DNA of 45,221 nt from positions 1-45,221 of the forward strand of contig CAISJJ010000179.1 of NCBI GenBank assembly GCA_903885595.1. Reading direction: 5' to 3'. The notes below the pieces were generated by a model, which made no database searches, had not been told where the DNA came from, and saw only the letters and a list, made by a program, of their open reading frames with translations. How positions within the stretch are numbered: the stretch's first letter is position 1; each line of letters begins with the position of its first letter. The translations under genes were made by a program, and so were the position numbers. This stretch comes from an uncultured Bacteroidales bacterium (GTDB lineage Bacteria; Bacteroidota; Bacteroidia; Bacteroidales; FEN-979). Of the stretch, positions 1-45,221 are shown in pieces.

Positions 1-357
1 AATCAATCCATCAATCAATCCATCAATCAATCAATCCGTCAATCAATCAATCCGTCAATCAATCAATCCATCAATCAATCAATCCATCAATCAATCCATC
101 AATCAATCCATCAATCAATCCATCAATCAATCCATCAATCAATCCATCATTCAATCAATCCGTCAATCAATCATTCAATCAATCCGTCAATCAATCATTC
201 AATCAATCCGTCAATCAATCATTCAATCAATCCGTCAATCAATCAATACACCAATGCATCCATCCGTCAATCCGTCAAACCATCAGTCAATCAGTCAATC
301 AGTCAATCCGTCAATCCGTCAATCCGTCAATCAGTCAATCAGTCAATCAGTCAATCA
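1..357. repeat. Degenerate tetramer-based tandem repeat array
   Basis: The first 357 bases are built almost entirely from four-base units, mainly AATC mixed with CATC, CGTC, CATT and AGTC. They combine into 12- and 16-base blocks such as AATCAATCCATC and AATCAATCAATCCGTC. The array begins at or before the window edge and stops about 45 bases from the stop codon of the minus-strand decarboxylase gene, so it lies at that gene's 3' side. The same motif family recurs inside murD2 (14276-14313) and before tsaE (38431-38490). I see no gene or terminator in 1-401. Confidence 0.95.
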
Positions 358-401
358 TTTATTCCACATTCATAATTTGTTGATCGATATTCGATATTCT
401 T

Positions 402-3071
402 TCAAACCTCTTCATATTCAGTCCTGGCAATAACTTCATCCTGGATCTGTTTGCCAAGTTCAACCCAGTATTGGGTAAAACCAGCCACACGGACCAGCAA
501 ACTCCTGAATTTATCGGGCTCTGCCTGGGCCTGTTTGAGCATGCGGGAGTCGACGATGTTGAATTGTACGTGGAAACCTCCTTTTCTCAAGTATGCACGA
601 ATCAATTCCAGGAATTTCCGCGATCCTTCACGGCCTTTCACTACCGAAGGATGTATTTTCATATTGAGCTGAGAATTCTGCGATTGAGCATGGTTCCAGC
701 AGGTTGCCGAGTTAAACAGGGCGTAGGGCCCGTTTTTATCAGTACCAGGATAAGCTGATACCGAACCATCGGAAAAGGTAGTACCGCTTAACCTTCCATC
801 GGGACTGGCAAGTGTTACGGCGCCCATGGGTCCATGAGTGGATACGGAGATCTGGCAGGCATACATAGGCTGGTCGTAAAGTGAACGGTAGTCATGTGCC
901 ATGTCGCAAAACCAGTCTTCCCATTCTTTCAGGATATCATCAACAAAGGGGTTATCATTCCCGAATTTGGGTGCATCAAGGCTCAGGCGGTGGATCTTTT
1001 TCCAGTTAGGATAATCTTCCGTAGGAACCTGGTCGATCAGGGAATAGGAGCCGGTTTCCTGGGCAGTCTTGTATCCGAAATTCGCCAGGATGGCTTTCCG
1101 GTATTCGTCAAGGGTGTAATTCTTTTCCGTAAAGACATTCTTTTTGAGCGATCCAAGTGAATTCACCAGGTTTGTGGTACCGCAACTTTCAATATTGAAT
1201 GTTGTGTTATAACGGCAGCCCATTTGCCCTATGTCCTTTCCTTTTGCCAGGCAATCGGGTTTCAGCATAGAGTTGACCAGCGAAGGAGAAATCTTGCGCC
1301 AGGCGTCATGCTGGATATTATTGGTGAGTGTCAATACATGACATGCCCGGCTGAAATAATCTTTAAAAGCCTGCCAGATTTCATCATAAGTTTCCAATGG
1401 ATATCCATGGGATGGAAAGATTCGTTGTCCGGTTCGCATGTCCATCCCATCGAAAAGGGCAACCTCAAGCAATTTCGGCAGGTTCAGAAAGTGGACGCCA
1501 ACACTGGTTGCAGGAGCAGAACCACCTGGTATCCAGTGAATTTCATTGTCAAGTTCCAGGGGCATCCAGCTTCCGGGCGATGTTTCAAGGCATCCGCCGA
1601 TAGCCCAGGCACGGGCTTCTTCCAGATTCATCCCCTCGTGGGCATAATTTCCAAGCAGAAATTCCATGGCGACCTGATTGTTTACCCAGGCGGGATATCC
1701 GGTCCCGATCTTGGTGCATTCAATGCCTTTGAGCAGGAATTCCTCAGGAAGTTTTTCATCATATAGCAGAGAGAGTGTAGGTTGTGGTGTGTCGCATGTA
1801 ATCCCAGCTTCGAGAATCAGTATTTCAAGTTCATTGGCAGCCGGGGTTCCATCTTTCAACAAGCCGCCGAGGCAGAGGTTATTAAAGGTATTGCCCGACA
1901 ACACCCCGCCAACCACTCCCATAGATGCAAAGCAATCAATCTCTGTAAATTTTATTCGCATGCATTCGAGCAGTTCAAGGCTCTTTTCGCGGTCGATTGC
2001 ACCGCTCTTCATATCGCGCTGCCAAAATGGAAATAAAACCTGGCCAACCCGTCCGGGTGATAATCCCGAAATGGCATCTTCGTTCAGCACGGCCGCATGG
2101 AAGATCCAAAGCATCTGCAGGGCATCATGAAAAGAACGGGGCGGTTTGGCCGAGATCCATTCGAGTCGTTCGGCCATCTCAAGGTATTCGGTTTTCTGTT
2201 TTTCTTCCGTTTCAATTGAAGCAAGGAATTCAGCCTCCTCTGCATAATTCCTGATCCACGATTTAAGTCCTTCCAGCATCACAATAACGGCCTGGTAAAA
2301 GTAAAGGCGGTCCATATCGGGATAGCCAGCCACATCGGCTATTCCATCCTGGCAATTCTGAATAATACCGTCGATCCCAAACTGCAGCGGGTAATAGTAA
2401 TTCATCACTTCACGCCCCTGCGGAAGGGTATAACCGGAGTCGAACATGCAGATTACCGAGCGCATCAGGGCCTCTTTTTCCTTGTAACCGGGGACCAATT
2501 GTTCATATTTATGACCAACATCGTCAACAGATTTGTCTTTCCATTTTTTTGCAACTTCAAGCATGATGGGCATCTCTTCGACACGCAGCCCGAATTTTCC
2601 GGCGATGGAGATAATTTTTCCAACACTTTTTGTAACGTTCCCACCGCCTTTTCCCATGGTTGTGAAGGTATCGGCTGTCAGTTTCCCTGATTCCTGCGCC
2701 TCTTTGTAGAGCTTATCTTCGGCAGCCATGAAAAAGGCTTCAGAGAGCCAGGGCATTGGATAGGAGCCACGGAGGTAAGAGGCTTTACCCATGACGAGTA
2801 GTTCGCCGGGATAAATTACCGGTGTGAGATGTGCAAAACCCGATTTCAGCGCTTCGGCACGGCGGATGATGGGAATTTCACCTTCGAGTTCTTCCCACCT
2901 GCGGGTATACCAATAGGGGAATTCCATTGAAACCGATGATTTGGCTTCAAAATAAAGCTCTCTTGCTGCGTTTGCGCGTGGAGATGGTTGCCGCTTGACC
3001 TCACGCGAAGTAACCTCCGCTCCCGGTTCAGTGCCATAATAGTTTATGTGGGATTGGGTTTTAGTTTCCAT
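402..3071 (-). CDS. hpdB: Glycyl radical enzyme, 4-hydroxyphenylacetate decarboxylase large-subunit type
   Basis: An 889-residue pyruvate formate-lyase-family glycyl radical enzyme, close in length to HpdB/CsdB (about 897), which decarboxylates 4-hydroxyphenylacetate to p-cresol. The active-site loop GGCLET carries Cys494 and Glu496. Near the C-terminus RVAGFTQYW carries the radical Gly864. The other substrate-site residues described for Clostridium scatologenes HPAD (Ser344, Cys503, Glu505, His536, Glu637, Gly873) match Ser335, Cys494, Glu496, His527, Glu628 and Gly864, all at the same offset of nine. This favours HPAD over indoleacetate or phenylacetate decarboxylases, although the family comparison is from memory. 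The small Fe-S subunit (HpdC) and activating enzyme (HpdA), usually adjacent in clostridia, are not seen; downstream of the stop there are only repeats to the window edge. The start is the ATG at 3071, behind a good -7 box. Confidence 0.82.
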   Translation of the reverse strand: METKTQSHINYYGTEPGAEVTSREVKRQPSPRANAARELYFEAKSSVSMEFPYWYTRRWEELEGEIPIIRRAEALKSGFAHLTPVIYPGELLVMGKASYLRGSYPMPWLSEAFFMAAEDKLYKEAQESGKLTADTFTTMGKGGGNVTKSVGKIISIAGKFGLRVEEMPIMLEVAKKWKDKSVDDVGHKYEQLVPGYKEKEALMRSVICMFDSGYTLPQGREVMNYYYPLQFGIDGIIQNCQDGIADVAGYPDMDRLYFYQAVIVMLEGLKSWIRNYAEEAEFLASIETEEKQKTEYLEMAERLEWISAKPPRSFHDALQMLWIFHAAVLNEDAISGLSPGRVGQVLFPFWQRDMKSGAIDREKSLELLECMRIKFTEIDCFASMGVVGGVLSGNTFNNLCLGGLLKDGTPAANELEILILEAGITCDTPQPTLSLLYDEKLPEEFLLKGIECTKIGTGYPAWVNNQVAMEFLLGNYAHEGMNLEEARAWAIGGCLETSPGSWMPLELDNEIHWIPGGSAPATSVGVHFLNLPKLLEVALFDGMDMRTGQRIFPSHGYPLETYDEIWQAFKDYFSRACHVLTLTNNIQHDAWRKISPSLVNSMLKPDCLAKGKDIGQMGCRYNTTFNIESCGTTNLVNSLGSLKKNVFTEKNYTLDEYRKAILANFGYKTAQETGSYSLIDQVPTEDYPNWKKIHRLSLDAPKFGNDNPFVDDILKEWEDWFCDMAHDYRSLYDQPMYACQISVSTHGPMGAVTLASPDGRLSGTTFSDGSVSAYPGTDKNGPYALFNSATCWNHAQSQNSQLNMKIHPSVVKGREGSRKFLELIRAYLRKGGFHVQFNIVDSRMLKQAQAEPDKFRSLLVRVAGFTQYWVELGKQIQDEVIARTEYEEV

Positions 3072-3102
3072 GGTTTTATCATTTTTTCGGACAACGCTGT
3101 TA

Positions 3103-13868: not shown

Positions 13869-13939
13869 TGCTATCGGATTTTCATGTCAAGGCGATTTCT
13901 TAAATCCGGAAATGCTGTTCCCTTTGAGCCGCAAAGTCC

Positions 13940-13947
13940 TATATTTG
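13940..13947 (+). promoter_or_regulatory. -7 box that places the murD2 start at 13977
   Basis: TATATTTG is a full match to TAnnTTTG, 29 bases before the ATG at 13977. It lies inside the longer frame that opens at 13884, so a transcript from it could not encode the first 31 residues of that frame. A TTTG at the right distance is not seen (only TGTT at a 20-base spacing). Confidence 0.6.
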
Positions 13948-13976
13948 CAAAGGAAAATGTTGGCAAGTCTTGGTAT

Positions 13977-15419
13977 ATGGTTAATCTGATCCGTGAACGG
14001 TTTGAACACAAATCGATCGTTCTGCTGGGTTTTGGCAGAGAGGGGCAGTCGAGTTATTCCCTGCTGAGGAGGGTATTCCCCGGCAAGCAACTGGCAATTG
14101 CAGATGCAAGTGAAAGTGTGCGCGAAAACCCATTGATCAGGGAGGATAAATCGGTCAGTTTCATTACCGGACCCGACTATCTCAATAAATTGAATGATTT
14201 CGACGTGATTTTCCGATCTCCGGGAATCCCTGTCTGGCAAATTGTCCGGGAACATATTTCAGCCGCCAACTCCCCCAATCACTCAATCACTCAACCACTC
14301 AATCACTCAATTCTTCGAGAAAAAATCACATCTCAAACAGAATTATTCCTCGAATGCTATTCAAAACAGGTGATCGGCGTCACCGGAACCAAGGGTAAAA
14401 GCACTACATCCAGCCTGATCCATCATATTTTGAAGACAGCCGGCAGAGATGTGCTTCTGGCTGGCAACATCGGAAATCCCGTTTTTCATTTCATCGACCT
14501 CATCACGCCTGACACGATCATCGTTTTTGAAATGTCATCGCATCAGCTTGAATTCCTGAAGCTGGCACCTCATATTTCGGTGCTGCTCAATCTTTTCCAG
14601 GAACATCTTGATGCCTATGAAACTTATGATGCCTATCAGCTTGCCAAGCTGAACATCACAAAATATCAGCAGCAGCGCGATTTTATCATTTTCAATGCCG
14701 ACGACCCCCAGGTTGCCAAACTGGTAGCGCCATATCTGAAAAACCGGTTTGCCTGTCCGTTTTCTTTGAAAGAGCGGTCACGTCCCGGTGGATTTATCCG
14801 GGACGGCTTTGTTTGCTTTGCCGATGAAAATCAAGTCGTCCCGGTGTGGAAGATTCATCAGGACCGGTTTTTACGCGGTGAGCACAACCTCAAGAACATC
14901 ATGGCTGCCGTGAATGTGGCCATGATCTGCGGAATTGAAACTGAAATGATCGAAGATGGCATCGCCACCTTCAAAGGACTTGAACACCGGCTGGAGTATG
15001 TGGGCGAGTTTGGCGGGATCCATTGTTACAATGATTCAATAGCCACCATTCCTGAGGCGTGTATGGAGGCCATCAAGGCAATTCCCAATGTGGATACGCT
15101 AATTGCCGGAGGGTTCGACCGCGGAATCGACTATGCTGAACTGGCCCTCTTCCTGAGCCGATCGCAGGTGCGCAACCTGATTTTACTTGGCGCTGCAGGA
15201 AAGCGCATCGGGGAGCGCCTAAGGAATTTGGACCTTTCCGAAAAAAAAATTTGGTATATCAATCGTTTTGATGATTTTTACCCTATTGCTTTTCGCGAAA
15301 CAAAGGCGGGCTGCGCTTGTCTATTATCTCCTGCTGCTGCCAGTTATGACGAATTTAAGAATTTCGAGGAAAGGGGAAAGCGGTTCAGGGAGATGGTGAG
15401 AAGTGAGGTAGCGAGGTAG
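13977..15419 (+). CDS. murD2: MurD2-like UDP-N-acetylmuramoyl-L-alanine--L-glutamate ligase
   Basis: A Mur ligase of 480 residues from the ATG at 13977, which begins MVNLIRERFEHKSIVLLGFG. It has the ATP loop GTKGKSTT (137-144), EMSSHQLE, NLFQEHLDAY, the HRLEYVGEF block and LLSPAAASYDEF near the C-terminus. In canonical MurD the acceptor motif is NDSKATN; here it is NDSIATIPEA (352-361), with Ile for the Lys and Ile for the last Asn. From memory this NDSI(A/S)T form is shared with Xanthomonas MurD2, which ligates L-Glu; MurL would then epimerise it. The gene is not in a dcw cluster. A repeat-encoded insertion lies at about residues 100-113, and the final residues EVAR and the stop are part of another repeat array. 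A frame from 13884 is possible but has a promoter inside it. Confidence 0.8.
   Translation: MVNLIRERFEHKSIVLLGFGREGQSSYSLLRRVFPGKQLAIADASESVRENPLIREDKSVSFITGPDYLNKLNDFDVIFRSPGIPVWQIVREHISAANSPNHSITQPLNHSILREKITSQTELFLECYSKQVIGVTGTKGKSTTSSLIHHILKTAGRDVLLAGNIGNPVFHFIDLITPDTIIVFEMSSHQLEFLKLAPHISVLLNLFQEHLDAYETYDAYQLAKLNITKYQQQRDFIIFNADDPQVAKLVAPYLKNRFACPFSLKERSRPGGFIRDGFVCFADENQVVPVWKIHQDRFLRGEHNLKNIMAAVNVAMICGIETEMIEDGIATFKGLEHRLEYVGEFGGIHCYNDSIATIPEACMEAIKAIPNVDTLIAGGFDRGIDYAELALFLSRSQVRNLILLGAAGKRIGERLRNLDLSEKKIWYINRFDDFYPIAFRETKAGCACLLSPAAASYDEFKNFEERGKRFREMVRSEVAR
14276..14313 (+). repeat. In-frame octamer repeat inside murD2
   Basis: Units CAATCACT, CAATCACT, CAACCACT, CAATCACT and a partial CAATTC stand in tandem within the coding region. 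They are translated as NHSITQPLNHSI. The motif belongs to the same AATC family as the arrays at 1-357 and 38431-38490. It sits between the beta-strand ending SPGIPVW and the segment ITSQTELFLE, which in ordinary MurD are separated by only a short helix and loop. Confidence 0.85.
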
Positions 15420-15487
15420 CGAGGTAGCGAGGTAGCGAGGTAGCGAGGTAGCGAGGTAGCGAGGTAGCGAAATGGCGAAATGGCGGA
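15405..15487 (+). repeat. Octamer array overlapping the murD2 stop codon
   Basis: Tandem GAGGTAGC units (period 8) run from 15405, then change to TAGCGAAA and TGGCGAAA units near the end. The first two units encode the last residues of MurD2 and its TAG stop (15417-15419). The same octamers, in opposite orientation, fill 45114-45221. Confidence 0.92.
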
Positions 15488-15543
15488 ATTGTGAAGTGTT
15501 TTGGAACACCCGAAAAAATAAAAGTGATTGTGAAAAAGGTGAA

Positions 15544-20904: not shown

Positions 20905-20973
20905 TTTAGTGAATAGTGATTAGTGAATAGTGAATAGTGAATAGTGAATAGGGAATAGTGAATAGTGAATAGC
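20905..20973. repeat. Heptamer array next to a GTG start
   Basis: Tandem units of GAATAGT (period 7) with a few substitutions (for example GATTAGT and GGAATAG) fill the gap between the DUF6427 start and the 3' side of purD. The rest of the gap to 21037 shows no gene. Confidence 0.92.
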
Positions 20974-29547: not shown

Positions 29548-29560
29548 AAGTAAATTTTTT

Positions 29561-29587
29561 GTCACGCGTCACGTGTCACGTGTCACG
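29561..29587. repeat. Heptamer array between EF-P and the LpxD-like gene
   Basis: Four TCACGTG/TCACGCG units (period 7) fill most of the short gap between the two minus-strand genes. Read on the minus strand the unit is GTGACAC, which matches the GTGACAA array at 38273-38349 and resembles the GGGACAC array at 31018-31125. Confidence 0.85.
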
Positions 29588-29588
29588 T

Positions 29589-30155
29589 TTATACTTTCAC
29601 CCTTTCCGAGTAATCCCCCGTACGGGTATCAACCCTGATTGTTTCACCTTCGCTGATAAAGAGTGGAACCTTTACAATGGCTCCGGTTTCAACTGTACAA
29701 TCTTTAAGGGTATTGGTGGCGGTATTGCCGCGCATTCCAGGTTCAGTATAGGTGATTTTAAGAACAACAAACGGGGGGAGTTCACATGTAAGCGCGGTTT
29801 CGGTATCGGCATGAAAGAGGATTTCAACCTCCTGTCCTTCCTTTAAGAATTGAGGGGCATTGATGAGAGATTCCGGAACATAAATTTGTTCGAATGTCTC
29901 CACATGCATAAAGTGGTAATCGGTATTTTCCTTGAAAAGATATTGGTATTTCCTGCGTTCAACACGGGCGATTTCGAGTTTTGCACCCGAATCAAATGTG
30001 TTGGCAATGACACGGCCGTGTTTCAGACTTTTTAATTTTGTCCGGATAAATGCCGGTCCTTTGCCGGGTTTTACATGCTGAAATTCCACAATGCTGTACA
30101 AGTCGTTGTTAAATTCGATGACGAGGCCATTTCTGATATCTGCTGTTGTAGCCAT
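29589..30155 (-). CDS. efp: Elongation factor P
   Basis: A 188-residue EF-P, which relieves ribosome stalling at polyproline. The three-domain layout is complete: an N-terminal KOW-like domain with [14 protein letters not shown], carrying the tip lysine Lys32, the middle OB domain, and the C-terminal domain ending GDYSERVKV. The modification of Lys32 cannot be seen here. The ATG at 30155 lies downstream of a -7 box at 30190-30197. Confidence 0.97.
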
Positions 30156-30263: not shown

Positions 30264-30986
30264 ATGAAAAAACTATTAAAACGACTCCTTTGTTTACTGC
30301 ATATTTCTGTAACCCGAAATCAGAAATACGATGCCTTTACTCATAAAATAATCAGGCGAAGCCTTAAACCGGATTCGAATTGCATTGATATTGGTTGTCA
30401 CAAAGGTGAAATTCTCGACCTGATGATCAAAGGCGCTCCCAAGGGTAAAAAATATGGATTTGAACCCATTCCTGAATTGCATCAGGCTCTGTCATTAAAA
30501 TATACGGAGGATTCGACTGTTTTCATCAGCCCGATTGCGCTGTACGATAAAACCGGAACAACCACTTTTCAGCATGTGTTGAATGCTCCTGCCTACAGTG
30601 GAATTAAAAAACGAAAATATGACGGGAAGCAGGTAGAGATAGAACAAATCTCTGTACAAACAGATCTGCTCGACAATATAATTCCTTCCGGTATTTGTAT
30701 CGACCTGTTGAAAATTGATGTTGAGGGTGCCGAATTTAAGGTGATGAAAGGTGGCGCCCGCATGCTTAAACGCTGTAAACCGGTAATTATTTTTGAATTT
30801 GGGCTGGGAGCGGCCGATTTTTACGATTCAAAGCCCAAAGAATTGTATGCCTTTTTGACAAGGGATTGCGGGATGAAAATTTCCACCCTGAAAGGCTATC
30901 TCGACTTAGCGCCTCAATTATCTGAAGCCCGGTTTTGCGATATGTTTAACAAAGGAACCGAATATTATTTTGTCGGACACCCTTGA
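30264..30986 (+). CDS. FkbM-family methyltransferase
   Basis: A 240-residue SAM-dependent methyltransferase. The SAM-binding motif is CIDIGCHKGE (residues 41-50), followed by YGFEPIPELHQAL and LLKIDVEGAEFKVMKGG, the FkbM-family signature. Such enzymes O-methylate sugars or other small acceptors and are common near surface glycan genes, as here. The acceptor is unknown. The start is the ATG at 30264 behind a -7 box at 30222. Confidence 0.88.
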   Translation: MKKLLKRLLCLLHISVTRNQKYDAFTHKIIRRSLKPDSNCIDIGCHKGEILDLMIKGAPKGKKYGFEPIPELHQALSLKYTEDSTVFISPIALYDKTGTTTFQHVLNAPAYSGIKKRKYDGKQVEIEQISVQTDLLDNIIPSGICIDLLKIDVEGAEFKVMKGGARMLKRCKPVIIFEFGLGAADFYDSKPKELYAFLTRDCGMKISTLKGYLDLAPQLSEARFCDMFNKGTEYYFVGHP

Positions 30987-30988: not shown

Positions 30989-31013
30989 AATTACAAATTA
31001 CGAATTACAAGTT
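30989..31013. repeat. AATTACR heptamer array after the FkbM gene
   Basis: AATTACA, AATTACG and AATTACA in tandem, beginning two bases after the FkbM stop codon. A related stretch, CGTAATTCGTAATT, appears at 31131-31144, and relatives occur at 35267-35300 and 35369-35384. Confidence 0.75.
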
Positions 31014-31017
31014 AATC

Positions 31018-31125
31018 GGGACGCGGGACACGGGACGCGGGACGCGGACGCGGACGCGGGACAAGGAACACGGAAGTGGGACGCGGGACACGGGACACGG
31101 GACACGGGACACGGGACAAATGACG
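31018..31125. repeat. GGGACAC/GGGACGC heptamer array
   Basis: About 108 bases of heptamers GGGACAC, GGGACGC and GGGACAA, with some shortened (GGACGC) units in the middle. It lies in the gap between the convergent FkbM and ABC genes. The units differ by one position from the GTGACAC and GTGACAA units at 29561 and 38273. Confidence 0.92.
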
Positions 31126-31169
31126 ATCCCCGTAATTCGTAATTTTTAATTTTTAATTGTATCTGGTCA

Positions 31170-31262
31170 CCAACTTACCAGTTTACCAGCTTACCAGCTT
31201 GCCAACTTACCAGTTTACCAGCTTGCCAACTTACCAGTTTACCAGCTTGCCAACTTGCCATC
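31170..31262. repeat. Octamer array with a 24-base higher-order unit, up to the ABC stop codon
   Basis: Octamers CTTACCAG, TTTACCAG and CTTGCCAA alternate in this order, giving an approximately 24-base higher-order repeat. The array ends immediately before the stop codon of the minus-strand ABC gene. Confidence 0.92.
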
Positions 31263-31886
31263 TCATTTAAACTCCTCTATCTGTATTGCAGTATTTGCAA
31301 ACGCCGACTCTGTCTGATGCAGGTTTGAGCAAATGATGATGGTCCGGTTTCCCGCGAAATTGTTGATGAGATCAAGGTACCAGGTGATACCGGCTTTATC
31401 CAGGTTCATGGTTGGTTCGTCGAGCAGGATCAGGGGAACATCGCTCAGGATGGCCGTAACAAGTTTCACACGTTGCTTCATCCCGGAAGAGAACTGGCGT
31501 ATTTGTTTATGCTCGTTATGGACAAATCCCAGGAGATCGGAAATGGCATGTTTATCAAATCCAGGCAAATATGATTTAAAAGAGAAGTGGAATCCGAGCA
31601 TTTCGCTGAGCGTGAAGTCCTCGATCAATTCCATGTAGGGAGCCACCAGGGTAAGATGATGAAAAATATCATCGCTGTTGATCACAGCGCCATTGTGGAT
31701 GTACACTACCTGTCCGGCAGTAGGGTGGAGGTTTCCCGCAACGACCTGTAAAAGCGTTGATTTCCCGGAACCATTACGGCCCAGGATGGCCGATGCCGAT
31801 TTTTCCTCAAAGGTGAAGGTGACATTCCGGAAGATCCATTCTGTATTGAATCTCTTCCCGATATTTTCAAGCTGTATCTTCATCAT
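31263..31886 (-). CDS. ABC transporter ATP-binding protein
   Basis: A 207-residue ATPase subunit. Walker A is GRNGSGKS (36-43), the signature is QFSSGMKQR, and Walker B is LILLDEPTMNLD. No membrane segment is present, and no permease lies next to it. It follows lpxA by 44 bases on the same strand, so it may be the last gene of the lipid A operon and serve lipid or cell-envelope transport. The exported substrate is unknown. The second Met (31883) is an alternative start. Confidence 0.88.
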   Translation of the reverse strand: MMKIQLENIGKRFNTEWIFRNVTFTFEEKSASAILGRNGSGKSTLLQVVAGNLHPTAGQVVYIHNGAVINSDDIFHHLTLVAPYMELIEDFTLSEMLGFHFSFKSYLPGFDKHAISDLLGFVHNEHKQIRQFSSGMKQRVKLVTAILSDVPLILLDEPTMNLDKAGITWYLDLINNFAGNRTIIICSNLHQTESAFANTAIQIEEFK

Positions 31887-32732: not shown

Positions 32733-34124
32733 TTATTTGCGTTGAATCTGGGCCATCATCTCTGCTTCCATCACTATTTTGTTACCTACATAAGCAACAC
32801 CTTTCATGCAGATCAATCCGCGGCGCATGGGTGCGGTGAGCTGGTTAAAGAATACGATGGTATCGCCCGGCACAACTTTATTCCTGAATTTAACACTGTC
32901 GATCTTCACAAACAGGGTGTTGTAATTCTGGGGATCTTCGACCATATTTAGGGCAAGAATCCCTCCGGTTTGGGCCATCGCTTCGATCTGGATTACACCG
33001 GGCAGCACAGGTTCGTCGGGAAAATGACCTACAAAGAAAGTTTCATTAATCGTAACGTTCTTGACACCAACTACATAGTCCTTTCCCATTTCAAGGATCT
33101 TATCGATAAAAAGAAAAGGTGGCCGGTGCGGAAGGATGTTTTTTATCTGGTTGATATTATAAAGAGGCGTTTTATTCAGGTCAAACTTAGGTCCCTCTTC
33201 GGGTCTAAGCTCTTTTTTTAATTGTTTTTTGATCATCTTGGCAAACTGCACGTTCGAATAGTGGCCAGGACGGGTGGCAATAACGTGACCCTTGATGGGC
33301 ATACCAACCAACGCAAGGTCGCCGATAATATCAAGAAGTTTATGCCGGGCTGGTTCATTGGCGTATTGAAGTTCCAGGTTATTGAGAATGCCTTCCTTTA
33401 ATACTGAAACCTTTGGTTTATTAAAAAGGTGCGCCAGGTGGTCGAGTTCCTTGCGCGACATTTCACGGTCGACAAACACGATGGCGTTGCTCAGATCCCC
33501 TCCTTTGATCAGGTTGTTATTTACCAGATATTCAAGTTCATGTAAGAAAACGAAGGTGCGGCATGTAGCAAAATCATCCTTGAACTGGCTGAGGTGATTG
33601 AGGCTGGCATTTTGCGACTGGAGAACCTTTGATTCATAGTCGATCATAACAGAAACCCTGAATTCCCTGGATGGAATGACAATCATCTCCACTTTTTTTT
33701 CAGGGTTGAGGTAGGTAATGTTGGAATTAACCTCAAAATACTGGCGGAGCGCTTTTTGTTCAACGATTCCGACCGAAAGCAGGGCTTCAACGTAATACTT
33801 TGAACTGCCATCAAGAATCGGGGTTTCCGACTGGTTCAGCTCAATCAGGGCATTGTCAATTTCCAGTCCTGCCAGCGCTGCAAGCACATGTTCGACAGTA
33901 TCAATGCGTACTCCGTCCTGCTCAATACTTGTTCCACGGGAGGTGTCGACAACATGTTCAACATCAGCATCGACAAGGGTTCCCGTGTTTAGATCAACCC
34001 TGCGAAATTTATATCCATAATTTTCAGGTGCGGGTTTGAAGGTGATCACAACTTCATTCCCTGTATGCAAGCCTACTCCGGAAATGCTTACCGGAGCCAT
34101 AATTGTTCTCTGTTTTTCACTCAT
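32733..34124 (-). CDS. lpxC-fabZ: Bifunctional LpxC deacetylase / FabZ dehydratase
   Basis: A 463-residue fusion typical of Bacteroidetes. The N-terminal LpxC half (to about 300) contains ISGVGLHTGNEVVITFKPAP, the zinc-binding HVLAALAGLEIDNA and HKLLDIIGDLALVG. It deacetylates UDP-3-O-acyl-GlcNAc. The C-terminal FabZ half (about 315-463) has the catalytic ILPHRPPFLFIDKI and HFPDEPVLPGVIQIEAMAQ, and dehydrates 3-hydroxyacyl-ACP. One protein thus joins lipid A and fatty acid synthesis. Its start overlaps the end of lpxD by 8 bases. Confidence 0.97.
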   Translation of the reverse strand: MSEKQRTIMAPVSISGVGLHTGNEVVITFKPAPENYGYKFRRVDLNTGTLVDADVEHVVDTSRGTSIEQDGVRIDTVEHVLAALAGLEIDNALIELNQSETPILDGSSKYYVEALLSVGIVEQKALRQYFEVNSNITYLNPEKKVEMIVIPSREFRVSVMIDYESKVLQSQNASLNHLSQFKDDFATCRTFVFLHELEYLVNNNLIKGGDLSNAIVFVDREMSRKELDHLAHLFNKPKVSVLKEGILNNLELQYANEPARHKLLDIIGDLALVGMPIKGHVIATRPGHYSNVQFAKMIKKQLKKELRPEEGPKFDLNKTPLYNINQIKNILPHRPPFLFIDKILEMGKDYVVGVKNVTINETFFVGHFPDEPVLPGVIQIEAMAQTGGILALNMVEDPQNYNTLFVKIDSVKFRNKVVPGDTIVFFNQLTAPMRRGLICMKGVAYVGNKIVMEAEMMAQIQRK

Positions 34125-35151
34125 GCTGTTTCTTCAAAAGTTTTTCGATGGAGTAAACCTTTCTGACGATTTCGTCGAGGTTACGCCAATGTATAAAATT
34201 ACGCCTGGCTTTATTAATTTCGATAGCCGGAGCGCCAAGCATCATGGCTCCTTCCTGGGTGATACTTGCCTCAACACCTGAACCGGCGCCGATTTTTACA
34301 TTATCGGCAATGGTTATATGGCCAACAATGCCTACCTGTCCGCCGATCATACAGTTTTTCCCTATTTTGGTTGAACCGCTGATGCCAGTCTGTGCAGCAA
34401 TGACGGTATTTTCTCCAATTTCAGCGTTGTGGCCTACCTGGATCAGGTTGTCAAGTTTCACGCCATTGCGGATAATGGTTGAACCCAAAGTAGCCCTGTC
34501 GATGGTTGTATTGGCCCCGATCTCCACGTTGTCTTCAAGAATCACATTTCCGAGCTGGGGAATTTTCTGATAATTATTCCCGGATACGGGGGCGAAACCA
34601 AAGCCGTCGGAACCGACTACCACCCCCGAATGCAAGGTGCAACGGGCCCCTATCACACAATCGCGATAGATGCGAACGCCCGGGTAAACCAGGAAGTGAT
34701 CGCCGATGGTAACATTGTCACCGATGTATACCTGTGAGTGGATAACTGAATTTTTTCCTATCACCACATTTTTCCCAATGACGGTAAATTCGCCCACTGA
34801 AACATTTTCGCCCAGCCGGGCAGTGGAGGCAATGGATGCCTGGGCTGAAATACCGGTAAGGATCGATTTTGACTGGTCGAACATTTCCAGTAACGTAGCA
34901 AAGGCTGAATAGGCATCGGCAACCCGGATCACTGTGCCTGTAAAAGGCTGGGTTGCGGCGAAATCGGAGTTGACAACAATCACCGATGCTTCAGTGGTAT
35001 AAACAAACGGTGTGTATTTTGGATTGGCCAGAAAGGTCAAAGTGCCCGGCTTGCCGTCGTCAATCTTCGACAAGTTGGAAACCTTAATCTCCGGGTCACC
35101 TTCAACGGTACCTTTAAGAAAACCGGCAATCTGAGCGGCAGTAAATTCCAT
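34117..35151 (-). CDS. lpxD: UDP-3-O-(3-hydroxyacyl)glucosamine N-acyltransferase
   Basis: A 344-residue LpxD, the third acylation step of lipid A. It has the N-terminal uridine-binding domain (beginning MEFTAAQIAGFLKGTVEGDP), hexapeptide repeats, the catalytic His segment LDNLIQVGHNAEIG and the C-terminal helix (WRNLDEIVRKVYSIEKLLKK). It is the first of three overlapping or closely spaced lipid A genes. A clear -7 box is not seen ahead of it (only TAAATTG, one base short). Confidence 0.95.
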   Translation of the reverse strand: MEFTAAQIAGFLKGTVEGDPEIKVSNLSKIDDGKPGTLTFLANPKYTPFVYTTEASVIVVNSDFAATQPFTGTVIRVADAYSAFATLLEMFDQSKSILTGISAQASIASTARLGENVSVGEFTVIGKNVVIGKNSVIHSQVYIGDNVTIGDHFLVYPGVRIYRDCVIGARCTLHSGVVVGSDGFGFAPVSGNNYQKIPQLGNVILEDNVEIGANTTIDRATLGSTIIRNGVKLDNLIQVGHNAEIGENTVIAAQTGISGSTKIGKNCMIGGQVGIVGHITIADNVKIGAGSGVEASITQEGAMMLGAPAIEINKARRNFIHWRNLDEIVRKVYSIEKLLKKQHE

Positions 35152-35266: not shown

Positions 35267-35300
35267 AATTACAAATTACGAATTACGAATTATGAATTTT
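35267..35300. repeat. AATTACG heptamer array upstream of lpxD
   Basis: AATTACA, AATTACG, AATTACG and AATTATG units lie in the 235-base gap between the lpxD start and the HD gene stop. CGTAAAT units occur again at 35369-35384 in the same gap. No gene or terminator is seen in the rest. Confidence 0.8.
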
Positions 35301-35386: not shown

Positions 35387-36622
35387 TCATAATACCTCTT
35401 TCGGGTAACAAAGAAGGTACTTGCTTACGGTGGTTGGCATCACAGCGTTGTTAAGCTGTTCGGAGGCTTCGGAGATATCGGTGAGTTCGTTTTTTTTATC
35501 TTTGATCATGATACGGTCATGGCGGGGGTTGTAGGCCTTATTCTCCACGCGATCGCTGGTGAAGAAATAATCAATTTCATCCGGAGCAAGCTGAAGCTGT
35601 TGTATCGTTTTTTGCCTGATGAGTTCCACATAGGCCGGGTCAAAAGGTCTGGACTGCATTTCAACCCGGAACAGACGGCGGTTCACCAGGTTATAACAAA
35701 GGGTCGAGAGTATCGGATCAGCATGGAATGCCCATACTTTTAATGATGCAAATACATCAAAATCATCAAGCAGGGCAAAGTCAGCAAGCCATTTCGGATT
35801 GATTTCAAAGTCGTTTCGGGTTGGATTATTCTGTAAAAACCGGTCGAAAGCCGGGGTTGCATGGAGGAGCGCCCCTTGTTCACGAAGGTATTTTGCACGT
35901 TTCAGCAGTTTCACCAGCAATTGATCGGCAGCAATAACTGTTTTATGGAGATATACCTGCCAGTACATCAGGCGGCGTGAAATCAGAAACTTTTCGATTG
36001 AATAAATCCCTTTTGCCTCAACAACCAGTTCATCGTTGCACACGGTCAGCATTTTGATAATCCGGTCGTAGCTGATCACCCCTTCGGCTACCCCGGTAAA
36101 AAAACTGTCGCGGGCCAGGTAATCGAGGCGGTCCATATCGAGCTGGCTTGAAACCAGCTGGTGAAGAAATTTCTTTGGATATTGATCCGTGAAAATAGCA
36201 TAAGCCAGGTCAAGTAGACCCCCTGACTGCCTGTTGAGTTCGGCCATAAATAATTTTGACAAGTCCTCGTGGGTCAGGTCCCTGACAATGGTCTGTTCGA
36301 GAGTGTGAGAAAATGGCCCGTGCCCGATGTCGTGCAAGAGTATTGCAAGATTAAGTCCCCTGACCTCTTCATCCGTGATATCGATACCCTTAAGGCGCAA
36401 TACTCCGATTGCCAGCCCCATCAGGTGCATGGCGCCCAACGCATGCTGGAACCTTGTATGCATGGCCGAAGGATAGGTATAGTGTGTAAGTCCGAGCTGC
36501 TTGATCCTCCGCATCCGCTGGAAGTATGGATGCTCGATTACATCAAAAACCGCAGCATCCGGAATTGTGATAAATCCGTAGACCGGATCATTGAAATTCT
36601 TTTGTTTATTGGTGGTGAACAA
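35387..36622 (-). CDS. HD-domain phosphohydrolase (dGTPase-like)
   Basis: A 411-residue HD-superfamily protein. The metal ligands are visible in HTRFQH (55-60), LLHDIGHGPFSHTLE (His97-Asp98) and DMDRLDYLARD. The length and motifs fit the dNTP triphosphohydrolase-like family common in Bacteroidetes; nucleotide triphosphohydrolase activity is inferred. The conserved N-terminus FNDPVYGFITIP begins close to the frame start, and the only suitable codon is TTG (36620-36622); there is no upstream ATG before an in-frame TAA. The gene is divergent from porX and upstream of lpxD with a 235-base gap. Confidence 0.86.
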   Translation of the reverse strand: MFTTNKQKNFNDPVYGFITIPDAAVFDVIEHPYFQRMRRIKQLGLTHYTYPSAMHTRFQHALGAMHLMGLAIGVLRLKGIDITDEEVRGLNLAILLHDIGHGPFSHTLEQTIVRDLTHEDLSKLFMAELNRQSGGLLDLAYAIFTDQYPKKFLHQLVSSQLDMDRLDYLARDSFFTGVAEGVISYDRIIKMLTVCNDELVVEAKGIYSIEKFLISRRLMYWQVYLHKTVIAADQLLVKLLKRAKYLREQGALLHATPAFDRFLQNNPTRNDFEINPKWLADFALLDDFDVFASLKVWAFHADPILSTLCYNLVNRRLFRVEMQSRPFDPAYVELIRQKTIQQLQLAPDEIDYFFTSDRVENKAYNPRHDRIMIKDKKNELTDISEASEQLNNAVMPTTVSKYLLCYPKEVL

Positions 36623-38272: not shown

Positions 38273-38349
38273 GAGTGACGAGTGACGAGTGACAAGTGAC
38301 AAGTGACAAGTGACAAATCACAAGTGACCAATGACCAATGACGAATTAC
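38273..38349. repeat. GTGACAA heptamer array after porX
   Basis: Units GAGTGAC, AAGTGAC, CAATGAC and GAATTAC (period 7) begin 3 bases after the porX stop codon. In reverse complement the unit is the same type as the array at 29561-29587. The region up to 38430 shows no gene. Confidence 0.92.
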
Positions 38350-38430: not shown

Positions 38431-38490
38431 AATCAATCAATCAGTCAATCAGTCAATCAATCAATCAGTCAATCATTAATTCATTAATTC
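38431..38490. repeat. Tetramer array immediately upstream of tsaE
   Basis: AATC, AGTC and CATT/AATT tetramers make up the last 60 bases before tsaE, ending 6 bases ahead of its GTG start codon. The unit types are those of the array at 1-357. An in-frame TAA (38485-38487) in the array sets the upstream limit of the tsaE frame. Confidence 0.9.
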
Positions 38491-38496
38491 AAACAA

Positions 38497-41038: not shown

Positions 41039-43255
41039 CTATGATTTACCCAAATGCCTGATCCTGAAAACCGTGAAAATTACATACATGTAATGAAACC
41101 AGACCAGCGACAGTAAAACGATCAGGGTGTAGACCATCCAGAGCGGGGCATCGGTGTCGCCCAGTCCGCGTTTTACAACCTTTAGCGGCGGAAGGGGTTT
41201 ACCCCAGTTAATTGTTCCGCTTACCTCTGCATTGCCATATTGTTCATGTTCTTCCACTTTTGCCACCAGGGTCACATAACCCAGTTGATTACCAGGTACT
41301 GAAGTTGGAAATTCGAAACTGGCCGATCCGTTTTCAATGCTGGCCTGGCCAACTTTAAGCAGGCTGAATGTTCGGGGAACATAAAAAACAACATCGAGAT
41401 TTTCAACCGGGCTCCATTGATTATCTGCTCCCAGCTCATCGACCTTGAGGTTAACCATTTTTTCCTCCTCTTTCTGAAAGAATGACATCTCCATTCGCAG
41501 TGGTTTCATGGCTGTGCCTGCTGAAGCCGCAGTGTACAAGTCGTTACCTGAAAACGAAGCTTCAAATGAATAAATCCCTTTATCTCCCCCGGTGGTGATG
41601 ATTTCTTCGGGAATCGTGAAGGAAACTTTCCCTTTTTCATTGGTAAGTGCCGAACCTAAAGTTGTTTTCTTTCCGCCCTGAATAACGGTGGAATTTATTT
41701 CCATATCCGGCAGGGGTCTGTACCTGCCTTCGATTTTGGCTCTCAGTGTGGCGGTGATTTTATGAACCGAATCAGCATGAAAATAAGCCAGGTTAAGCAC
41801 TGGCTCAATCTTTTCGTCCTGGGCCATTATCGCCGGTGTGGTTCCCAGCATAAGCAGGATAAGGACGATAGTTGAAGCAATATCACTTTTTTTGTGCTGT
41901 TTGATCACAGTTTTCATCTGTTTTTCAAAAACGATTTTCCTCAGCCGCGAATAATCTTTTTCTTCACCGCTCCGAACAACAGGGATGATTGGTATAAATT
42001 TCGAAAAGAGGTAAAACAAAAGAATAAAAAGGGCAATACCTGCGAATGTAAGAGCCCATTCAACCCAGGTGGCCGAATAGTGGACATATTCAGGCCTTAG
42101 ATCATGAATTGGCAGCATGGGAGTTTCGAGGGTGGGGATGATGATCAGGTAGCGCTTCACCCAAAGGGCCAGTACGGCAATGCAGGCAGCGAATGCGATT
42201 GAATTTATGTTGCGGAACCTTGGAACTGTGACGATGATGATGGGAACCAGCACACCGAAAAAGACGGCAAAAACAAACAGGTGCCAATATTCGCTGGGGT
42301 TAAACAGCCGGTACAATACCTCCATGTCCCATTTGATGGAGCCATACCAGCTTGTAAGGTATTCGCTGAAGGTAAAATATCCATACATGGCACCGAGTAC
42401 GATCATGATGATGCCCAAATAGTTGAAGTGTATTTTTGTAATTTGCGATTCAAGATGATAGATTTTTCTGAAAACCCACATCACGATGATCAGAACCCCG
42501 GTTCCGGAATAGACGGCTGCAATAACAAAATAGGGAGCGAAGATGGTGCTGTGCCATCCCGGGCGGAGTGTCATCCCGAATATCCAGGCAAGAACGGAGT
42601 GAACAAGGATGGCCAGGGGAATGATTACGATCGATAACAAATCTGTTGATACATTTAACAGCTCCTTTTGTTTGGTCGTGTCTTTATAGCGGACTGCCAG
42701 GAAACGGTAAATGGGATTTCGCCACCTGGCATTTTTCACGGGGTTATCTCTCAGGATCGCCAGATCGCGGATCATGGCCAGGTAGAGAAAAATAATGCTG
42801 CCCGACAAATAGGTGGTTATTGCAATCACATCCCAGATGATGGGGGACTGGATTCTGCCGAACAAAACCAGATTCGGCAAACGGTCAAGGCGCCCGATAC
42901 ATAATAATATATATGCCGGCCCGATCATGGTTGAAATGACGGTGATCATCTCTGCCATCCGGATGATGGGTGTTCTCCAGGGAACTCTTAACAAATGCAG
43001 TATCCCTGAAATCAATGCCCCGGCATAACTTATCCCGATGAAGAAGATAAAATTGACGATATATAAACCCCACACCACATTGTCGCGCATACCGGTTACG
43101 ATATGCCCATCAGCAACCTGGATGTACAAGGCATACATGCCAAACCCTATCACCAGCAAGAGAAAAACAATCAGGGCGATTCCCCATTTACTCATTTTCT
43201 CCAGCTGGGGTTTGAAGGCATAAAGATTTTGCTGTGTTTTTTCGTCTTCGTACAT
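41039..43255 (-). CDS. NrfD-type quinol-linked membrane protein fused to a secreted Ig-like domain
   Basis: A 738-residue protein. Residues 1-435 form an NrfD/PsrC-type integral membrane subunit with about 10 helices; SPIIWDVIAITTYLSGSI and TLRPGWHSTIFAPYFV are typical. These subunits exchange electrons between quinones and Fe-S partners. From Met447 the sequence changes: HKKSDIASTIVLILLMLGTT and PAIMAQD look like a signal peptide (447-478). A beta-rich periplasmic region (about 485-700) and a C-terminal membrane helix (about 703-727) follow. The frame is open throughout, with no stop between the parts. Either it is a true fusion, or a second protein starts internally at 41917. Confidence 0.84.
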   Translation of the reverse strand: MYEDEKTQQNLYAFKPQLEKMSKWGIALIVFLLLVIGFGMYALYIQVADGHIVTGMRDNVVWGLYIVNFIFFIGISYAGALISGILHLLRVPWRTPIIRMAEMITVISTMIGPAYILLCIGRLDRLPNLVLFGRIQSPIIWDVIAITTYLSGSIIFLYLAMIRDLAILRDNPVKNARWRNPIYRFLAVRYKDTTKQKELLNVSTDLLSIVIIPLAILVHSVLAWIFGMTLRPGWHSTIFAPYFVIAAVYSGTGVLIIVMWVFRKIYHLESQITKIHFNYLGIIMIVLGAMYGYFTFSEYLTSWYGSIKWDMEVLYRLFNPSEYWHLFVFAVFFGVLVPIIIVTVPRFRNINSIAFAACIAVLALWVKRYLIIIPTLETPMLPIHDLRPEYVHYSATWVEWALTFAGIALFILLFYLFSKFIPIIPVVRSGEEKDYSRLRKIVFEKQMKTVIKQHKKSDIASTIVLILLMLGTTPAIMAQDEKIEPVLNLAYFHADSVHKITATLRAKIEGRYRPLPDMEINSTVIQGGKKTTLGSALTNEKGKVSFTIPEEIITTGGDKGIYSFEASFSGNDLYTAASAGTAMKPLRMEMSFFQKEEEKMVNLKVDELGADNQWSPVENLDVVFYVPRTFSLLKVGQASIENGSASFEFPTSVPGNQLGYVTLVAKVEEHEQYGNAEVSGTINWGKPLPPLKVVKRGLGDTDAPLWMVYTLIVLLSLVWFHYMYVIFTVFRIRHLGKS

Positions 43256-43264
43256 AGTTCCTAA

Positions 43265-44212
43265 TTATTCAGTTATTTCGGCTTCGGTTTTATACAGGGC
43301 AATCTCCTCTTCACTTAATCCTTCGAATCCTACGGTATAATCAAAGGCACGGTCAACCGCAGGCAGGTAGTATACACTTGGCTCAGTGCCAAGTTCTTCC
43401 ATAAAACGATAAGCTGCCCGTGTGGCAATCAGTTCGCTGAACCGCACTGTGTCAGTTCCATTGGTAACTGCATCTTCGTTTTTGTCGCCGTAATAGAAGA
43501 CACCGTTGGGACAGGATGCCACGCAGTTTGGCAGTTCTCCTTTTCTGACCATGTCGGGACAGAAGTCGCACTTGCTCACAGTTCCCATTTTTGGCGGATT
43601 ACTGGTTTCGGGCGAATAGGCTGCCGGGTTTAGGCTTTTATCGGTTTTTGGCTCTTCCCAGTTGAAAACCCTTGATGAATAAGGGCATGCAGCCATACAG
43701 AATTTGCAGCCGATGCAACGGTCGTTATCAATCAGAACAATTCCGTCGGTACGTTTAAACGTGGCGCCAACAGGGCAGACCTTGACACATGGAGGATTAT
43801 TGCAGTGCAGGCAGGGCTTTGGGAACCAATAAGGGGCCATCTCCTCCGAATCGCGCATCAGGTAAAATTTGATCCATTCCATATGGGGTGGAAGGTGATG
43901 CATTTTCTGACATCCTTCAAGGCATTTCCTCGCATTCCGGCATTTCGCAAGGTCGATTACCATGACCATTTTCTTGTCGGGTAAACCCTGGCGTGATTCC
44001 AGGTTAGAAGCAGGCTGGCAGCACATATGCCCTTTGTCAACCTCGACAAGTTTCCCATCGGGGGTGAGTACCTTTATCATTTCACCGGTTTCTTTATTTT
44101 CATTACCCGTGATTGCTGATAAAACGCTGCCGCCACTGGCAACCAGCGCTGTGGCTCCTGCGGCAATTCCCAGTTTCAGGAAATTTCTGCGGTTAGATGA
44201 ACGACTTTTCAT
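43265..44212 (-). CDS. Tat-exported 4Fe-4S ferredoxin-type protein (NrfC/DsrO-like)
   Basis: A 315-residue periplasmic iron-sulfur protein. The Tat signal has SNRRNFLKLG (Arg8-Arg9) and a hydrophobic stretch. Four Cys groups follow: Cys91-x5-Cys97-x3-Cys101, Cys134/137/142/146, Cys166/169/172/176 and Cys215/218/230/234. In the first group the expected second Cys is Ala94 (CRNARKCLEGC), so that site may hold a 3Fe-4S or atypical cluster. The neighbouring NrfD and cytochrome c genes (9-base gap) suggest a quinol-to-cytochrome electron transfer complex. No molybdopterin catalytic subunit is in the window. Confidence 0.91.
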   Translation of the reverse strand: MKSRSSNRRNFLKLGIAAGATALVASGGSVLSAITGNENKETGEMIKVLTPDGKLVEVDKGHMCCQPASNLESRQGLPDKKMVMVIDLAKCRNARKCLEGCQKMHHLPPHMEWIKFYLMRDSEEMAPYWFPKPCLHCNNPPCVKVCPVGATFKRTDGIVLIDNDRCIGCKFCMAACPYSSRVFNWEEPKTDKSLNPAAYSPETSNPPKMGTVSKCDFCPDMVRKGELPNCVASCPNGVFYYGDKNEDAVTNGTDTVRFSELIATRAAYRFMEELGTEPSVYYLPAVDRAFDYTVGFEGLSEEEIALYKTEAEITE

Positions 44213-44241
44213 ATGGTTTGGGATTCTGTATTTCGGATCGT

Positions 44242-44249
44242 CAAATCTA
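44242..44249 (-). promoter_or_regulatory. -7 box for the redox operon
   Basis: Minus-strand TAGATTTG matches TAnnTTTG, 29 bases before the ATG of the ferredoxin gene. The -33 element is not clear. Confidence 0.5.
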
Positions 44250-44348
44250 CCAGTATATATATTCAGTTCTTGCGATATGATCCGTCAATAATGATGTTTT
44301 AAACAAGAAATTTTGATTTGTAAATATGGAATTTAACTTTAATGAAGA

Positions 44349-44362
44349 TTGACATATATCAA
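44349..44362. promoter_or_regulatory. FNR-type binding site
   Basis: TTGACATATATCAA differs by a single base from the palindromic FNR consensus TTGAT-N4-ATCAA. It lies 50 bases before the start codon of the FNR-like gene. A TACTTTTA (44372-44379; one mismatch from the -7 consensus) follows, so the site would be centred near -30 of that promoter, a position that suits autorepression. It is about 115 bases from the redox operon promoter. Confidence 0.6.
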
Positions 44363-44411
44363 TTTTTACATTACTTTTATGCACTGATTCAGCACTGATA
44401 ATTCTTCCCTG

Positions 44412-45113
44412 ATGAGTGAGTATTTTGATAAATCGACAAAGCGGTGTGCTGATTGCCAGAGCATGTCACAGTTATTTTGTTTATTGAATCAGGACGAACT
44501 TGCAATGGTTGATGCAAATAAGATATTTGTGCGGTTCAATGCCGGGGAGACCATCAAGAAGCAGGGCACCTTTATGTCGCATGTACTTTCTGTAAACAGT
44601 GGTCTTGCCAAATTATATATTGAGGGTATCGAAGGCCGTTCAGCTATCCTGCGCATTGTGAAACCTACAAGTTTCATTGGTGGCCCGGGAATATACTCTG
44701 ACCAGCGTCATCATTTTTCAATTACAGCCCTTGTGGATTCATCTGTTTGTTTCATTGATCTCCAGGTATTTAAAAAGATTCTTAGCGGCAATCAGCTCTT
44801 TGCTGAAGAGTTTCTCAAGGATTTCAGCCAGGATGTTCTGAGTGTTTATAACCGCCTTATTTATCTTACTCAGAAACAAATGCCCGGGCGAATGGCAGAT
44901 GCGCTGTTATACTTGCATGATGCTATATTCCGGAAGCTTAAGTTCCCGATGATACTTTCGAGGTTTGAACTTGCTGAATTATCGGCGATGTCGCGGGAGA
45001 GTGCGGTAAAGGTTTTACGCGATTTTCAGAAAGAGGGACTGTTACGCATATCAGACCATGAAATGGAGATCCTCGACTTGGAGGCATTACACAAGATAAG
45101 CCGCGTGGGATAA
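44412..45113 (+). CDS. Crp/FNR-family regulator with FNR-like cysteines
   Basis: A 233-residue transcription factor. The N-terminal cyclic-nucleotide-binding fold (FNAGETIKKQGTFMSHVLSV) is followed by a winged helix (FELAELSAMSRESAVKVLRD, residues about 182-201). The cysteines Cys12, Cys15 and Cys23 near the N-terminus, plus Cys113, resemble the four ligands of the oxygen-labile cluster of FNR (Cys20, Cys23, Cys29 and Cys122 in E. coli), so an anaerobic Fe-S sensor is plausible. An FNR-type site lies in its own upstream region. It is divergent from the ferredoxin-NrfD-cytochrome operon, which it may control. Confidence 0.87.
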   Translation: MSEYFDKSTKRCADCQSMSQLFCLLNQDELAMVDANKIFVRFNAGETIKKQGTFMSHVLSVNSGLAKLYIEGIEGRSAILRIVKPTSFIGGPGIYSDQRHHFSITALVDSSVCFIDLQVFKKILSGNQLFAEEFLKDFSQDVLSVYNRLIYLTQKQMPGRMADALLYLHDAIFRKLKFPMILSRFELAELSAMSRESAVKVLRDFQKEGLLRISDHEMEILDLEALHKISRVG

Positions 45114-45221
45114 TTTCGCTACCTCGCTATTTCGCTACCTCGCTATTTCGCTACCTCGCTATTTCGCTACCTCGCTATTTCGCTACCTCGCTATTTCGCT
45201 ACCTCGCTATTTCGCTACCTC
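45114..45221. repeat. Octamer array after the FNR-like gene, to the window edge
   Basis: TTTCGCTA and CCTCGCTA alternate (16-base higher-order unit) from the base after the TAA stop to the end of the window. In reverse complement these are TAGCGAAA and TAGCGAGG, the units of the array at 15405-15487. Confidence 0.95.

Follow-up and report, generated by a model that had tools for sequence, protein, structure and literature searches.

Arrays of simple-sequence repeats with 7- and 8-base units are a class with earlier examples in Nostoc, Xanthomonas and Beggiatoaceae, and here we describe such arrays in an uncultured Bacteroidales bacterium (GenBank assembly GCA_903885595.1), starting from contig CAISJJ010000179.1, whose 45,221 nucleotides, analyzed in full, we call the window (contig C179 of a 6.02-Mb draft genome of 547 contigs). 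Rehm et al. 2015 (PMC4692102), who studied one Nostoc and two Xanthomonas genomes, describe the G-rich heptamers GGGAATC and GGGGA(C/T)T, which lie on the antisense strand up to 50 bp before starts and on the sense strand up to 50 bp after stops, with few between divergent genes and with inverted pairs that are many in Xanthomonas and few in Nostoc; these authors found no role for these quadruplex-forming heptamers. A second set, the TAACTGA arrays of Beggiatoaceae, Cyanobacteria and five Bacteroidetes (MacGregor 2015, PMC4679880), runs mostly forward before starts in the Guaymas genome and in mixed orientations in Microcystis. The first-pass annotation of the window knew of no description of such heptamers in this group and was partly wrong, since heptamer arrays in Bacteroidetes had been published there. 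As cited in both papers, Mrazek et al. 2007 found heptanucleotides to be the commonest category of long simple-sequence repeats in most genomes, with a polymerase contact spanning about 7 nt put forward as what governs slippage.

The present arrays resemble the heptamers of Rehm et al. in their 7-base units, in being dispersed, mostly intergenic and rare between divergent genes, and in forming inverted pairs; those heptamers, too, are described beside the same genes in related species with differing length. The strand rule after stops and before starts holds here within 40 bp (33 outward to 4 inward in the IMG/VR sample below), as does the under-representation in coding sequence (8 of 68 arrays) and in divergent gaps (0.23 arrays per kb). 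However, just 3 of 57 arrays have the capacity for a quadruplex, a genome holds many units, octamers are common, and the unit varies between species at one and the same gap. The arrays also resemble the TAACTGA repeats, as intergenic heptamer arrays adjoining start or stop codons with a patchy distribution across phyla, and the cyanobacterial short tandemly repeated repetitive (STRR) sequences, whose units are usually given as 7 bp (PMC2670836). The passages that cite the long repeats of Mrazek et al. (PMC4679880, PMC4692102) make no mention of a polarity relative to gene edges, unlike what we find here. Within the open-access literature we found no report of an outward rule for non-quadruplex units, and none in which the unit at a given gap changes from species to species of a genus; subscription papers lay for the most part outside that search. 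In 648 kb of this genome there were no tandems of GGGAATC, GGGGATT or GGGGACT and no tandem copies of TAACTGA or of CAACAGT, the last an STRR unit and the only one of that class compared by sequence.

Outward polarity of the arrays

Read 5' to 3', AGTGACR and GATTTAC arrays usually point away from the coding edge closest to them, be it a stop or a start. The cleanest count comes from 74 contig stretches of IMG/VR (48 with AGTGACR and 26 with GATTTAC), for which both orientations were fixed beforehand; proximity to an edge means within 40 bp in this count and in those of the own genome, the congeners and the L029-L051 loci. After 39 of 78 array places had been dropped (18 abutting both edges, 12 far, 5 inside called genes and 4 near-duplicates), 34 arrays ran outward and 5 inward (P = 2.4e-6), and removal of two leftover duplicates, one inward and one outward, left 33 to 4 among 37 usable arrays (P = 1.1e-6). 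The ratio of outward to inward arrays was 15:3 at stops and 7:1 at starts for AGTGACR, and 5:0 and 6:0 for GATTTAC, which was thus outward in 11 of 11 cases. Looser filters near the edge gave 39:12 with signed distances and 42:7 with absolute ones. AGTGACR arrays from IMG/VR started at the A or the preceding base in 37 of 48 cases, a phase that is partly forced by the pattern and absent in the bacterium's own genome (4 arrays), and it was left unused.

The same filter left 24 outward and 3 inward arrays in the own genome (26 of 53 dropped) and 13 to 1 in congeners (9 of 23 dropped), counts for which the orientation of all ten unit families was chosen after seeing such data; with each family's orientation left free, the own genome still gave 24 of 27 (P = 0.0065). 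By unit family, the arrays that run mostly outward are AGTGACR, GATTTAC, GAATATC, GGTAGCGA, AAGTTGGY, GGGACRC and TTGATTGA.

Base composition and mutual order were examined as well. Arrays nearest a stop were purine-rich in the sense direction in 66 of 83 cases (P = 6e-8; own genome, congeners and three distant genomes pooled), and the purine fraction of array-free gap ends averaged 0.48-0.55. A composite measure gave ratios of forward to reverse arrays, taken in the sense of the nearest gene: codirectional gaps had 33:11 on their stop side and 8:8 in mid-gap, arrays near convergent stops 35:11, those on the start side 7:18, and divergent gaps 5:10. Neighboring arrays that share a gap were ordered >< 17 times, <> 5 times, >> 7 times and << twice, with one case undecided; the prevalence of the >< order disfavors a polarity set by the replication strand.

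Abundance, placement and unit choice

To judge the arrays beyond the window, we sampled 80 other contigs of the genome (every fifth from C5 through C400, no more than the initial 20 kb of any; 603,337 bases, window excluded), in which Tandem Repeats Finder (TRF, score at least 50) found 80 arrays, among them 32 with a 7-base and 13 with an 8-base period. When the sample was resampled three times from a first-order Markov model, 2, 6 and 2 arrays appeared, all of them with periods of 15 or longer. Runs of exact lag in 648,558 bases including the window fell on period 7 (33), 8 (21), 14 (15), 12 (7), 4 (5), 16 (4), 21 and 24 (2 each), and 6 and 20 (1 each), with none for the remaining periods from 2 to 24; across the related loci (23, together 414,779 bases) they fell on 7 (12), 8 (8), 14 (3), 9 (2) and 5 (1). 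The arrays are therefore confirmed as real, genome-wide and beyond chance, and the spread proposed by the first-pass annotation, which a restriction to the window would have contradicted, stands. Contig ends are enriched, with arrays within 250 bp of 12 of 148 sampled ends versus 2.1% of random interior 250-bp windows. Because of this enrichment the arrays probably fragment the assembly, and because they coincide with contig breaks they are probably undercounted in this draft and in metagenome-derived genomes.

Positions relative to genes depend on our own caller, which is based on open reading frames (ORFs) and was trained on these contigs. Outside called genes lay 60 of 68 sampled arrays of period 4, 7, 8, 14 or 16, leaving 8 in coding DNA, which makes up 79% of the sample. 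Among arrays with a flanking stop, 19 of 42 overlapped it or started within 5 bp of it, compared with 7.8 expected under uniform placement, a count reached in none of 1,000 simulations in the same gaps; near starts, 9 of 39 arrays compared with 4.5 expected. The tie to gene ends that had been proposed thus stands for stops and is weaker for starts, and a random placement relative to genes, the other outcome that would have counted against the proposal, was not what we found. Array density per kb of gap was 1.14 in codirectional, 0.97 in convergent and 0.23 in divergent gaps of the own genome, and 0.59, 1.41 and 0.45, respectively, in relatives.

Units recur at distant sites and differ by single bases within arrays, as had been proposed. 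Pattern searches, in which overlapping matches of one array count separately and the reversed pattern serves as control, gave 103 matches in the own genome for GGTAGCGA x3, 122 for AGTGACR x3, 42 for GATTTAC x3 and 57 for AATC x5, each with 0 in the control; GAATATC x3 had just 2 matches. Of 100 genomes searched for three copies of GGTAGCGA, 10 had them, the own genome among these, and all 10 belong to one family; the 57 genomes from other families that the search covered had none. The more general pattern (RRKKACN)x4 (391 matches versus 39 for the reversed control in the own genome) was present in 31 of 148 Bacteroidota genomes, own included, and very unevenly: G235, G212, G220 and G200 had 900, 712, 250 and 225 matches (control, 8, 4, 0 and 0), and G243, of the genus of G235 and G212, and G204, of the genus of G200, had none. 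Two other Bacteroidota genomes, G155 (71) and G176 (69), matched only the reversed control pattern and probably use another unit vocabulary. G235 also carries long arrays of 15-18-base units rich in GACGC/GCGTC (L228, L231, L233 and L235) and short arrays of 20-21-base units in gaps, several of which adjoin stops. The IMG/VR contigs (L248-L321), which are classed as viral, carry AGTGACR and GATTTAC arrays at gene edges.

How the unit changes between species was followed in the 26-40-kb region of the window, which was compared in 18 congeners after locating PorX and EF-P (17-18 genomes per gap, own included; strict exact-repeat criterion). Arrays occupied the gap 3' of the EF-P gene in 7 of 18 genomes, the convergent gap at 31 kb in 5 of 18, the porX-tsaE gap in 7 of 17 and the lpxD gap in 2 of 17; two divergent promoter gaps had arrays in 0 of 18 and 0 of 17 genomes, and two short codirectional gaps had them in 0 of 18 each. 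The units found 3' of porX were AGTGACR (own genome), AATGACC (G016), GGGTGACA (G008), CGTGACA (G006), a 9-mer plus ACTGCCT (G013), GTAAATC (G002) and GAAAACG (G001). In five genomes (G014, G004, G012, G011 and G018) the porX-tsaE gap is only 9-30 bp long and array-free, so that the arrays add length; in five others (G009, G010, G005, G003 and G007) it spans 96-148 bp and is array-free by the strict criterion, with imperfect repeats in some. Thus, between species represented by one genome each, both copy number and unit differ at the same gaps, and the porX-tsaE comparison indicates a tolerant site, a species-dependent unit and an array that is dispensable there.

Arrays and genes of the window

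The window holds 15 arrays of these periods (TRF score at least 36), 14 of them mainly in gaps; the first-pass annotation had placed its arrays in gaps, which fails only for the array CAATCACT x4.5 at 14276-14311(+), wholly within a Mur ligase ORF (13884-15419). Its 36 bases make 12 codons, an odd location for an 8-base unit. The coordinates and units of all the annotated arrays agreed with ours to within a few bases (12 arrays checked). The contig starts in an AATC-type array (position 1) and ends in a 16-mer array (45113). At the contig start, TTGATTGA/TTGACGGA (1-357, minus strand; annotated as AATC) lies 44 bp beyond the stop of a pyruvate-formate-lyase-like gene at 402-3071(-). The octamer GGTAGCGA, followed by GCGAAATG, occupies 15405-15489(+) (15405-15470 in the coordinate check), overlaps the stop of the Mur ligase gene at 13884-15419(+) and points outward, and the heptamer GAATAGT at 20907-20972(+) lies 3 bp off the start of the gene at 19911-20903(-), again outward from it.

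CGTGACR at 29560-29588(-) fills the gap 3' of the EF-P gene (29589-30155, minus strand) and touches both edges. A short AATTACR array at 30989-31014(+), 2 bp 3' of the stop of an FkbM methyltransferase gene at 30264-30986(+), precedes GGGACRC at 31017-31118(+), an array in the convergent gap with numerous GGG tracts, and the octamer AAGYTGGY at 31169-31260(-), which lies 2 bp off the stop of an ABC-ATPase gene at 31263-31886(-) and points outward. Further on, AATTACG at 35267-35298(+) sits mid-gap without a near edge, between lpxD at 34117-35151(-) and the gene at 35387-36622(-), and AGTGACR at 38273-38346(+), decaying to AATGACC and AATTACG, runs outward from 3 bp 3' of the porX stop. In the same gap, the array AATCAATC/AATCAGTC at 38431-38491(-) (38431-38475 in the coordinate check) ends 21 bp 5' of the tsaE start (38497) and, read outward from that start, is TTGATTGA/GACTGATT. 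The 16-base unit at the contig end (45113-45221, minus strand) consists of two octamers, AGCGAAAT and AGCGAGGT. A search of the window against Rfam gave no match at gathering scores.

Besides the type IX secretion regulator PorX, the window encodes a protein that carries a Por secretion tail. The DsrP-like gene of the window has relatives at 23 loci of metagenome-assembled genomes, all labeled Bacteroidales or Bacteroidetes except one labeled Flavobacteriales; several isolate names among them point to lakes. The order of the DsrP-like and DsrO-like genes (window 41039-44212) is kept in many of these genomes (L029-L051), and a second, diverged copy lies nearby in several loci (L035, L037 and L048-L050).

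Origin of the arrays and their polarity

Whereas the polarity itself is observed, its cause is something that we infer. The reading that we prefer, at a probability of about 0.55, is that the arrays are grown by slippage, weakly selected and seeded from existing arrays through a strand-specific step. Short seeds would be copied out of existing arrays into gaps and would then lengthen and shorten one unit at a time through slippage, and selection would rid coding sequence and promoters of arrays, so that the sites left to them would mostly be the first bases beyond a stop codon. The polarity would amount to the 5' end of the AGTGAC/GATTTAC strand being held against the coding edge, and it may be fixed at seeding, through strand-specific insertion or copying, rather than by selection on codons or RNA. 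In favor of such an origin we count the period spectrum, the polarity, the >< order, the differing units per gap and the patchiness between sister species. When arrays were compared by halves, the 5' half was better preserved in 32, the 3' half in 32, and the two were equal in 26 (n = 90); this absence of a decay gradient fits slippage throughout the array.

Several points weigh against this reading. Slippage by itself neither picks a polarity nor spreads a vocabulary, and the seeding step is one that we infer. The array at 45113-45221 abuts the stop of an Fnr-like gene at 44412-45113(+) and runs inward to it, and Fnr-like stop arrays are inward in all three species concerned (the window, L031 and L044), so that the L029-L051 loci count 0 outward to 2 inward; the next start is about 30 bp from the Fnr-like stop in L031 and L044, and in the window the next gene lies beyond the contig. 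One GATTTAC array of a congener (L213) is inward as well. Many of the congener counts stem from one orthologous gap and are not independent, and one genome was compared per species, so that the differences in copy number are between species. At starts, arrays were purine-rich outward in 19 of 30 cases, which is not significant, and GC skew was mixed in the own genome. Finally, TAACTGA sets are reported as mixed in orientation in Microcystis (PMC4679880), and the outward rule may therefore fail for some heptamers.

Alternatively, the arrays might be functional gene-boundary elements, with a protein that binds the repeats one way round, on the start side and the stop side of genes alike, and acts by insulating genes or by stabilizing transcripts. 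We regard this as unlikely, although orientation is linked to coding edges at both ends and is mostly retained even though the unit differs between species. Against it, the units in one genome are too diverse for one simple binding site, and 5 of 17 genomes have the array-free porX gap of 9-30 bp, with five more array-free at longer gaps by the strict criterion. RNA folding gave little support: eight single arrays of the window had z-scores from -2.5 to +1.4 and a ninth had no defined z. The lowest score was that of the GGGACRC array (2 of 200 shuffles went as low), and the convergent gap folded as a whole scored +1.4. The word "system" in the first-pass annotation implies a function, which for these arrays would be hypothetical.

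Somewhat less likely still, the arrays might have been dispersed by a transposase acting on single-strand DNA (HUH, Y1), of the kind associated with repetitive extragenic palindromic (REP) elements, which could insert short extragenic sequences in a strand-specific way. REP elements and their REP-associated tyrosine transposases (RAYTs) combine a short palindromic hairpin beside a guide tetranucleotide with a Y1 transposase. Matches to Y1_Tnp occurred in 7 of 7 array-rich versus 4 of 7 array-poor genomes (11 of 14 in all), with counts of 3, 3, 1, 2, 8, 7 and 6 versus 3, 0, 1, 2, 0, 1 and 0 (Mann-Whitney P = 0.016). However, presence alone fails to separate the groups, the sample is small, the split into rich and poor was set by us from the (RRKKACN)x4 counts, and the comparison is uncorrected for genome size and draft quality; we take the abundance in array-rich genomes as a lead and no more. 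The own genome has 3 Y1_Tnp matches, and its single-array folds show little structure, in folding that included no search aimed at REP hairpins.

Codon selection, by which stop-side arrays must supply stops in every frame and start-side arrays must avoid start codons, is improbable as an account of the polarity. It is true that, among 37 arrays overlapping a stop, the sense strand has stops in all three frames in 24 and the antisense strand in 7. However, GATTTAC has no stop and no ATG, GTG or TTG in any frame, its reverse, GTAAATC, has TAA, and yet GATTTAC was outward in 11 of 11 IMG/VR cases, which refutes codon selection as the full explanation; moreover, the purine bias persists in arrays lying 3-40 bp beyond the stop (25 of 33). 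Where arrays overlap the stop, codon selection may still add to the bias. A general function as fail-safe stop codons is likewise rejected, as GATTTAC, GAATATC and GGGACRC have no sense stops.

We give slightly less credit to an origin in which a telomerase-like enzyme or a reverse transcriptase adds repeats to broken ends that are then joined, although ends so extended and fused would give both the outward polarity and the >< order, and RVT_1 was present in the array-rich G000 and G110. It was not found in the array-rich G212, G235, G200, G220 and G115 and was found in the array-poor G100 and G204 (4 of 14 genomes in all), Ku occurred in 1 of 14 genomes (the array-poor G204), and the decay gradient along arrays that this origin predicts, as does directional growth, was not found (32 versus 32, with 26 equal); a polymerase outside RVT_1 would have escaped these searches. 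G-quadruplex regulation, as discussed for the Xanthomonas and Nostoc heptamers, whose published placement and polarity are alike (PMC4692102), is scarcely credible, since four GGG or CCC tracts occur in only 3 of 57 arrays of the own genome (window excluded), and quadruplexes are therefore not the general cause of the polarity.

Where the published accounts discuss heptamer arrays (PMC4692102, PMC4679880), they leave the role of the arrays open, and the outward rule is discussed there as a quadruplex matter. The present data add two things: the rule extends to several 7- and 8-base units that are not of the quadruplex kind, and different species carry different units at the same gene edges. 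It is tempting to speculate, although we hold it doubtful, that one strand-specific process, largely independent of the unit, lays 7-8-base repeats outward from starts and stops in several phyla and in viral-classed contigs, with the Xanthomonas and Nostoc quadruplex repeats as one case. An outward rule in non-quadruplex units, one of them without codon signal, weakens two explanations, and the question becomes testable: which process is strand-specific and respects coding boundaries, at starts as well as stops? Sister species of which one has arrays and the other none (G235 versus G243, G200 versus G204) lend themselves to a gene-presence screen for such a process.

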